64,000 nucleotides of DNA from Fimbriimonadaceae bacterium (GTDB lineage Bacteria > Armatimonadota > Fimbriimonadia > Fimbriimonadales > Fimbriimonadaceae). Below, in pieces: positions 27,141 to 27,888 of this stretch. The notes under the pieces were generated by a model that was not told where the DNA came from, searched no databases, and worked only from the letters and a program-made list of their open reading frames with translations. The first letter of the stretch is position 1; each line of letters opens with the position of its first letter. Made by a program: the position numbers and the translations under genes. The stretch lies in NCBI GenBank assembly GCA_019454145.1, contig CP075366.1, positions 2,459,564 to 2,523,563 on the forward strand. The letters run 5' to 3'.

Positions 27141-27245
27141 TTACTTGGTTTTCACCAAACTTAATAAGTCACTTTAGGTTTTGGCACGGTGTTTGAATAG
27201 ACAGAAAATGTCAGGCGGGCTGGAGGGTCTATCTGGGAAACAAAA

Positions 27246-27277
27246 ACGGCACCTACGAAAACTTCCCGAGGTGCCGT
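27246..27277 (-). terminator. Terminator of the cysteine-rich operon
   Basis: Perfect 9-bp stem ACGGCACCT / AGGTGCCGT with a 14-nt loop, followed on the minus strand by TTTTTG. It is 24 nt past the metallothionein-like stop. The 105 nt between this and the plus-strand terminator hold nothing I recognise. Confidence 0.75.
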
Positions 27278-27301: not shown

Positions 27302-27445
27302 TTAGCTTTCACAGCATTTGCAACCGCAGTTTTGTTCCGGGGTGCATTTGCAATCTGCGCCGCAGTTGCAAGTTGTGCATGAGCAGTTGTCGCCGCAGGT
27401 GCAATTTTCGCACTTGCAATTAGGGTTTGAACAGTTGTTTGACAT
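27302..27445 (-). CDS. Metallothionein-like cysteine-rich protein
   Basis: A 47-residue ORF from ATG 27443-27445 to TAA at 27302-27304. It has 15 Cys (positions 5, 10, 12, 15, 17, 21, 23, 26, 28, 32, 34, 40, 42, 44, 45), mostly as C-x-C pairs (CKCENCTCGDNCSCTTCNC), with no aromatic, no His and only Lys/Asn/Thr/Ser/Asp/Gly between. This is the composition of metallothioneins that sequester Cu, Zn or Cd as thiolate clusters. It differs from the cyanobacterial SmtA type, which has His and a GATA-like zinc finger. AAGGAAAAAAG precedes the ATG. It follows a secreted Cys-rich gene by 63 nt and ends in a terminator. Confidence 0.85.
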   Translation of the reverse strand: MSNNCSNPNCKCENCTCGDNCSCTTCNCGADCKCTPEQNCGCKCCES

Positions 27446-27508
27446 TTTTTCTTTTTTCCTTTTGTTATGTGTTATCGTGGCCCGAATTGGGCAGAGTGTC
27501 GCGCGTGT

Positions 27509-27847
27509 TCAGGCGCAACATGGTGGACCGCGAGGGGAAAAAGTTTCTCGGAATGCCTCGGTGGGAATCCAGAAATTGGTGATGGGTTGAACAATAGAAA
27601 CAGTTGAGATTAAAAGTTGTGGTTCAGATGGTTGCTCAACAATAGCGGTAGTTTCAACAACTGATTGTTCTTCAACCACTGGTTGACAGCATTCGCACTC
27701 GCATTTGTTTGCATCGCAGGCACAGCAAACGGTTTCAGAAATAGGAGCTTGGCAAGCGCAGGATGGGTTCAGGGTGGCGCACATACACGGGCTAGCGACG
27801 GTACACGTCGCCACCAGTGCTATCAGAATGCGGGGCCACTTCTTCAC
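27509..27847 (-). CDS. Exported cysteine-rich protein, partner of the metallothionein
   Basis: 112 residues from GTG. Signal peptide (KKWPRILIALVATCTVASPC), then a dense Cys cluster SCACQAP, VCCACDANKCECECC (about residues 29-54), a Pro/Val/Glu linker, and a conserved-looking end TEAFRETFSPRGPPCCA. The N-terminal CMCATLNPSC could also be a lipoprotein-like or periplasmic metal site. First gene of a unit with the metallothionein-like gene. The ending resembles small envelope proteins next to heavy-metal efflux genes, but no efflux gene is in view. Confidence 0.7.
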   Translation of the reverse strand: MKKWPRILIALVATCTVASPCMCATLNPSCACQAPISETVCCACDANKCECECCQPVVEEQSVVETTAIVEQPSEPQLLISTVSIVQPITNFWIPTEAFRETFSPRGPPCCA

Positions 27848-27861
27848 TCTTAACTATCGTA

Positions 27862-27888
27862 ATTATAGAACGGTTTTCGCAGTTCCAA
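27862..27888 (-). promoter_or_regulatory. Promoter of the cysteine-rich operon
   Basis: On the minus strand TTGGAA (27883-27888), 15-nt spacer, perfect TATAAT (27862-27867). The -10 ends 14 nt before the GTG start, leaving a very short leader without a clear Shine-Dalgarno. No operator palindrome for an ArsR- or Csor-type repressor is evident. Confidence 0.5.

Follow-up and report, generated by a model that had tools for sequence, protein, structure and literature searches.

The 64,000-nucleotide stretch analysed here, referred to as the window, carries two cysteine-rich ORFs in succession on its minus strand, where the original prediction had placed them (Table 1). The upstream product, hereafter the leader, has a hydrophobic N-terminus that looks by eye like a signal peptide, and a Cys cluster, CCACDANKCECECC, both of which had been pointed out before; 12 of its Cys lie before residue 60. 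The downstream product is a 47-residue protein in which, as described, 15 residues are Cys, mostly as C-x-C, and His, Phe, Tyr and Trp are absent. A single promoter with a TATAAT had also been claimed; the box itself is real and is conserved in the closest relative, but a consensus scan found no convincing -35 element upstream of it. The GTG start of the leader is merely 14 nt downstream of the TATAAT, and a transcript from this box would be all but leaderless. Both genes do end in one terminator, with a 9-bp stem (ACGGCACCT/AGGTGCCGT), a loop of 14 and then TTTTG, which exceeded the loop limit of the consensus scan and was not called by it. There are no metal genes among the neighbours of the pair in the window. 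Between the leader and the small gene lie two more hairpins (27470-27530), GTTGCGC/GCGCAAC around the leader stop and GCCC/GGGC, which the closest relative has in common with the window.

Table 1. Features of the two-gene unit, in window coordinates.
Feature	Position	Strand	Basis
Leader ORF, 112 aa, exported, Cys-rich, ending ..SPRGPPCCA	27509..27847	-	GTG start; orthologues G003-G007 aligned
Signal-peptide-like N-terminus, residues 1-24	27776..27847	-	Translation inspected
Cys cluster, residues 41-54, proposed metal-sensing site	27686..27727	-	5 Cys invariant in six orthologues
RGPP, candidate arrest motif, residues 106-109, 3 residues before stop	27521..27532	-	Invariant in six orthologues
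TTTTTCC, possible arm of a helix masking the metallothionein RBS	27536..27542	-	Weak, not significant in window alone; matching double change in G004
GGAAAAA, possible partner of TTTTTCC, overlapping the metallothionein Shine-Dalgarno	27453..27459	-	Pairing analysis
Metallothionein-like protein, 47 aa, 15 Cys	27302..27445	-	Codon changes against G004; relatives
TATAAT -10 box	27862..27867	-	Sequence; conserved in closest relative G004
Intrinsic terminator, 9-bp stem and T run	27241..27277	-	Sequence

Conservation of the pair in relatives, which the original prediction had named as a check, was found: within the genus, a member of the Fimbriimonadaceae (Armatimonadota), six of eight genomes carry the pair, namely that of the window and G003 to G007. 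The pair occupies one syntenic place, always beside the same conserved neighbours on the acs side and/or the pnp side, and in all six genomes the leader stop is followed on the same strand, after 60-63 nt, by the metallothionein start. The nearest relative of the window is G004, the MAG Fimbriimonadaceae bacterium ACE_ARM7 (L058) of the same genus, and BLAST-type searches with the 47-aa protein gave a convincing match to this genome only. The pair in G003, G005, G006 and G007 was found by Cys-spacing pattern and synteny; used on DNA, the pattern gave two matches beyond that in the nearest relative, among many simple-repeat false hits. The pair is absent from the syntenic place in G002, the contig of G001 ends there, and profile searches of these two genomes found neither leader nor metallothionein. 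Profile searches with both proteins across the rest of the class, outside the genus, gave nothing convincing, and weak leader matches (E 0.008-0.04) were set aside.

Both the leader and the small ORF are real genes. The 47-aa protein is 100% identical in the nearest relative, with 8 synonymous and no nonsynonymous codon changes where 17% of random changes would be expected to be synonymous, so the small ORF is more than a chance reading frame and is under purifying selection. Across the genus its counterparts have 38 to 47 residues, 13 to 16 of them Cys. Judged by its sequence, the protein can be classed as a metallothionein in the broad sense, being small, with about 30% Cys in CxC arrays and few or no aromatics. 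It is small and Cys-rich like SmtA/BmtA and MymT, but it has no His or aromatic residues and no Pfam or NCBIfam match, the SmtA/BmtA profile PF02069 included, which agrees with the original view that it is unlike the SmtA type. A PDB sequence search returned a single match at chance level, to a metallothionein chain (E 3.1). SmtA-type genes are controlled by SmtB/ArsR-type repressors (PMC8790569).

The module CSNPNCxCENCxCGDxCxC recurs, non-Cys residues included, in Tsukamurella, Mycobacterium, Mycolicibacterium, Gordonia, Flavobacterium, Mucilaginibacter and an alphaproteobacterial MAG, where the gene for the module protein adjoins a cation-efflux gene. The unnamed CSNPNCTCENCTCGDNCTC proteins of these bacteria have the same 19-20-residue module as the window metallothionein, with 18 of 20 residues identical in Flavobacterium, but mostly contain only one copy; upstream of it, no ORF ending in RxPP was found in Tsukamurella, Flavobacterium or the rest. 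The module spans four phyla, has no Pfam or NCBIfam entry and is useful on its own. Short CSNPNCTCENC proteins of Actinomycetota and Bacteroidota (L059-L065, L067-L076) are in some cases encoded beside AraC-type regulators, and on the Tsukamurella plasmid NZ_LR134461.1 the CSNPNCTCENC match lies under no annotated gene. An IMG/VR contig (L079:3001-3081) encodes a 27-30 aa protein, KNPNCKCENCKCENCKC, a possible virus-borne metallothionein.

Apart from the nearest relative, the orthologues of the leader are only 19-27% identical to the window protein, and even between the window and that relative there are 19 synonymous and 14 nonsynonymous codon changes, mostly in the linker. What is invariant among the six divergent orthologues is essentially PRGPP, which ends every leader 1-3 residues before the stop, and five Cys; the remainder is nearly unconstrained. 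The last Cys precedes RGPP by 52, 52, 49, 49, 59 and 59 residues in the six leaders (52 in the window). R[AG]PP occurs in no other of the 58 window ORFs that reach 100 aa. The leader matches no Pfam or NCBIfam family, the window leader and three relatives finding no Pfam family at E<=1, and the DUF2946 profile does not match it, so by profile it is not a DUF2946/CruR protein. RGPP is the strongest arrest motif known and its arrest is refractory to EF-P; in many phyla no tetrapeptide is avoided more, yet it is enriched at the C-termini of small secreted proteins encoded upstream of genes that include those of metal homeostasis (PMC12992588). A small exported ORF that has RGPP beside its stop and lies directly before a metal gene bears the signature of an arrest leader (PMC12992588, PMC9426467, PMC9973294), and by motif and position the window protein would belong to the RAPP/RGPP arrest-leader class.

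The closest worked case is CutF of the Rhodobacter capsulatus CutF-CutO-CutG unit, an exported leader with a Cys motif (CxxxC), a Pro-rich C-terminal stall motif and a short gap to the next gene, which responds to copper (PMC9973294). In CutF a stem-loop covers the next Shine-Dalgarno and the stall switches the next gene on, as proposed here, with a helix that is strong in relatives and weak in the window. CutF differs in that it is DUF2946-like and its target is a multicopper oxidase, whereas the window-type leaders precede a metallothionein, contain many Cys, carry RGPP and are without a DUF2946 match. CruR (DUF2946) of Bordetella pertussis is likewise the first gene of its operon and controls the next gene in response to copper through CXXC and a RAPP near the C-terminus, but there copper turns a TonB receptor off through Rho (PMC9426467). 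The conserved spacing of 45 residues between Cys motif and stall motif in CruR and CutF is not matched by the 52 residues of the window or the 49-59 of the genus. In ApdA, ApdP and the S. lividans set, too, a small secreted protein has RGPP/RAPP next to its C-terminus and the regulated gene lies downstream, but the classic members monitor protein localization (PMC12992588, PMC10951233). In the searched text of PMC12992588 no metallothionein is named as a target of RAPP/RGPP arrest peptides. The original statement that no such system has been described holds, within the literature searched, for an arrangement that includes a metallothionein, but not for the regulatory principle, which is that of CruR and CutF, leaders whose nascent chains detect metal and control the gene that follows.

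In three relatives (G004, G005 and G006) the unit continues beyond the metallothionein with a third gene containing an in-frame TGA in CPL-TGA-[VI]AGGY, followed by about 175 codons; the window, G003 and G007 have leader and metallothionein only. Of 113 genomes in the class, 45 have relatives of the third gene; across the phylum, with distant barrels included, 56 of 291 do. The third gene very probably represents a selenoprotein family, because the TGA position exchanges Cys and Sec (CPLU, CPLC, CPIC, CPVC, UPLU and UPVU), a hairpin right after the TGA covaries (it shows 96% pairing, and 5 of its 6 pairs have compensatory changes, whereas pairing in slid controls is at most 54%), and tRNA-Sec and SelB are present in all eight genomes of the genus. 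Plain readthrough and pseudogenes were rejected on the same grounds. The window genome has just a distant barrel, which lacks the CPLU part, and no CPLU selenoprotein. At 17 of 40 selenoprotein loci there is an upstream ORF that is Cys-rich and exported and ends in R[AG]PP, a motif that often occurs twice; control searches on the other strand over these 50 kb and on the downstream side each gave none. Class-wide, the distance from Cys to motif is 49-69 residues, with one of 85. Several loci also encode, between leader and selenoprotein, a small Cys-rich protein that usually has its own signal peptide.

Sequence evidence for coupling between stall and next gene comes from base pairing. The last codons of the leader pair with the metallothionein Shine-Dalgarno in G005, G006 and G007 (TCCTAATC/GATTAGGA; TCCTGAA/TTCAGGA), and this Shine-Dalgarno, with an unpaired probability of just 0.01-0.03, reaches 0.54-0.71 once the stretch that would lie under a stalled ribosome is masked. 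Over 16 unrelated loci, true pairs of leader end and next Shine-Dalgarno gave -193.3, against -145.5 +/- 9.5 for permuted partners, a value reached in none of 20,000 permutations; none of 1,000 composition shuffles did as well as the true pairs, nor, with the loci outside the genus alone, did any of 20,000 permutations. Examples are CTCCAATAG/CTATTGG (L122), CCTCCTATCG/CGATAGGAG (L127) and CTCCAATTG/CAATTGG (L130). Outside the genus, therefore, the arrest codons covary with the Shine-Dalgarno sequence of the next gene. Because true partners pair far more strongly than permuted ones, the Pro codons at the arrest site appear to belong to the mask, and a stall there should open the next gene. Within the genus the test was not significant (1,624 of 20,000 permutations). 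The possible helix of the window, TTTTTCC/GGAAAAA, has the counterpart TTTTTCT/AGAAAAA in G004, but with a dG of -6.7 and an unpaired probability of 0.53 to 0.88 it is weak, does not fall below shuffles and lacks significance; no masking helix exists in G003. The window itself thus hints only faintly at Shine-Dalgarno masking, and for it we infer the coupling mechanism from relatives.

Taken together, we consider it likely that the unit is a metallothionein gene regulated in cis behind a CutF-type arrest leader that senses metal on the nascent chain. The leader would be translated and its signal peptide would engage the Sec translocon; when RGPP arrives at the peptidyl-transferase centre, some 50 residues would separate it from the Cys cluster, which would by then have left the tunnel and lie inside or close to the translocon. 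The ribosome would stall at RGPP, near the leader stop, and metal bound to the nascent Cys cluster would prolong the stall, with CutF-like polarity. Covering the 3' end of the leader, the stalled ribosome could then either free the metallothionein translation start or block premature termination, and the metallothionein made would buffer metal in the cytosol. We infer that arrest takes place, that metal is the signal and in which direction the response goes. For the class Fimbriimonadia as a whole, we lean slightly towards a common unit in which a metal-sensing Cys-rich leader stalls at RAPP/RGPP, the Pro codons and those that follow act as the anti-Shine-Dalgarno arm, and the stall opens a metallothionein or other Cys-rich protein and/or a CPLU barrel selenoprotein, the window being a reduced, metallothionein-only form.

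The original prediction was that metal binding may occur on both sides of the membrane; on that reading the upstream protein is a mature periplasmic metal binder and the pair stores metal on both sides. The signal-peptide-like N-terminus of the protein and its early Cys would suit that purpose, as would the second Cys-rich, signal-peptide-bearing protein in the corresponding unit of other genera, but a sequence barely conserved outside five Cys and PRGPP does not, and a store leaves unexplained a C-terminal RGPP, a motif avoided in ordinary proteins (PMC12992588). CutF, moreover, is secreted and rapidly degraded, with no stable product kept (PMC9973294). Storage in the periplasm is therefore improbable, and since PRGPP and five Cys are invariant while the rest is free, and RGPP is a signature of arrest, the upstream protein is probably a regulatory arrest leader and more likely a nascent-chain sensor than a metal store. 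Such a leader could also answer to disulfide/redox state or to export capacity, with the metallothionein as a thiol or oxidative-stress buffer. Arrest leaders do precede sec and DsbA/thioredoxin genes (PMC12992588), and the unit of the relatives includes a CxxU selenoprotein; nevertheless, a downstream product that resembles a metallothionein, leader C-x-C clusters that resemble metal sites and the copper response of the Cys-motif leaders CutF and CruR make this unlikely, if less so than storage. The polarity might instead be that of CruR, with metal relieving the arrest, Rho terminating and the metallothionein off when metal is present. The gap between the two genes has more C than G in five of the six genomes, as in the CruR Rho site (PMC9426467), but a metal-repressed metallothionein makes little sense and the relatives have a Shine-Dalgarno mask instead, so this polarity is very doubtful.

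If the metal-sensing arrest leader is real, metallothionein synthesis is governed here by the ribosome via a metal-binding nascent chain, not by a DNA-binding metal sensor, and the reach of control by arrest leaders widens to proteins that buffer metal, and to a phylum where no study of it is known. An arrest motif that doubles as the mask of the next RBS is, furthermore, a simple and testable design.

The linked selenoprotein family is useful on its own. It has no Pfam or NCBIfam match; its AlphaFold2 model is a 12-stranded barrel (pLDDT 82.7), to which outer-membrane porins such as KdgM were matched at low significance. In the searched text of two reviews of prokaryotic selenoproteins, MtrB/PioB is the only barrel named. 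These outer-membrane-barrel-like selenoproteins, with a CPLU/UPLU/CPLC site and a SECIS-like hairpin, are found in Armatimonadota at L110:1501-2154 (-), L111, L112:1477-2145 (+) and L113-L139. The intervening Cys-rich proteins at L115, L116, L117, L120, L122 and L129 have 65-130 aa, mostly bear signal peptides and are unlike any Pfam family. Variants of the selenoprotein with two in-frame TGA codons and a UPxU site occur at L128 and L139.
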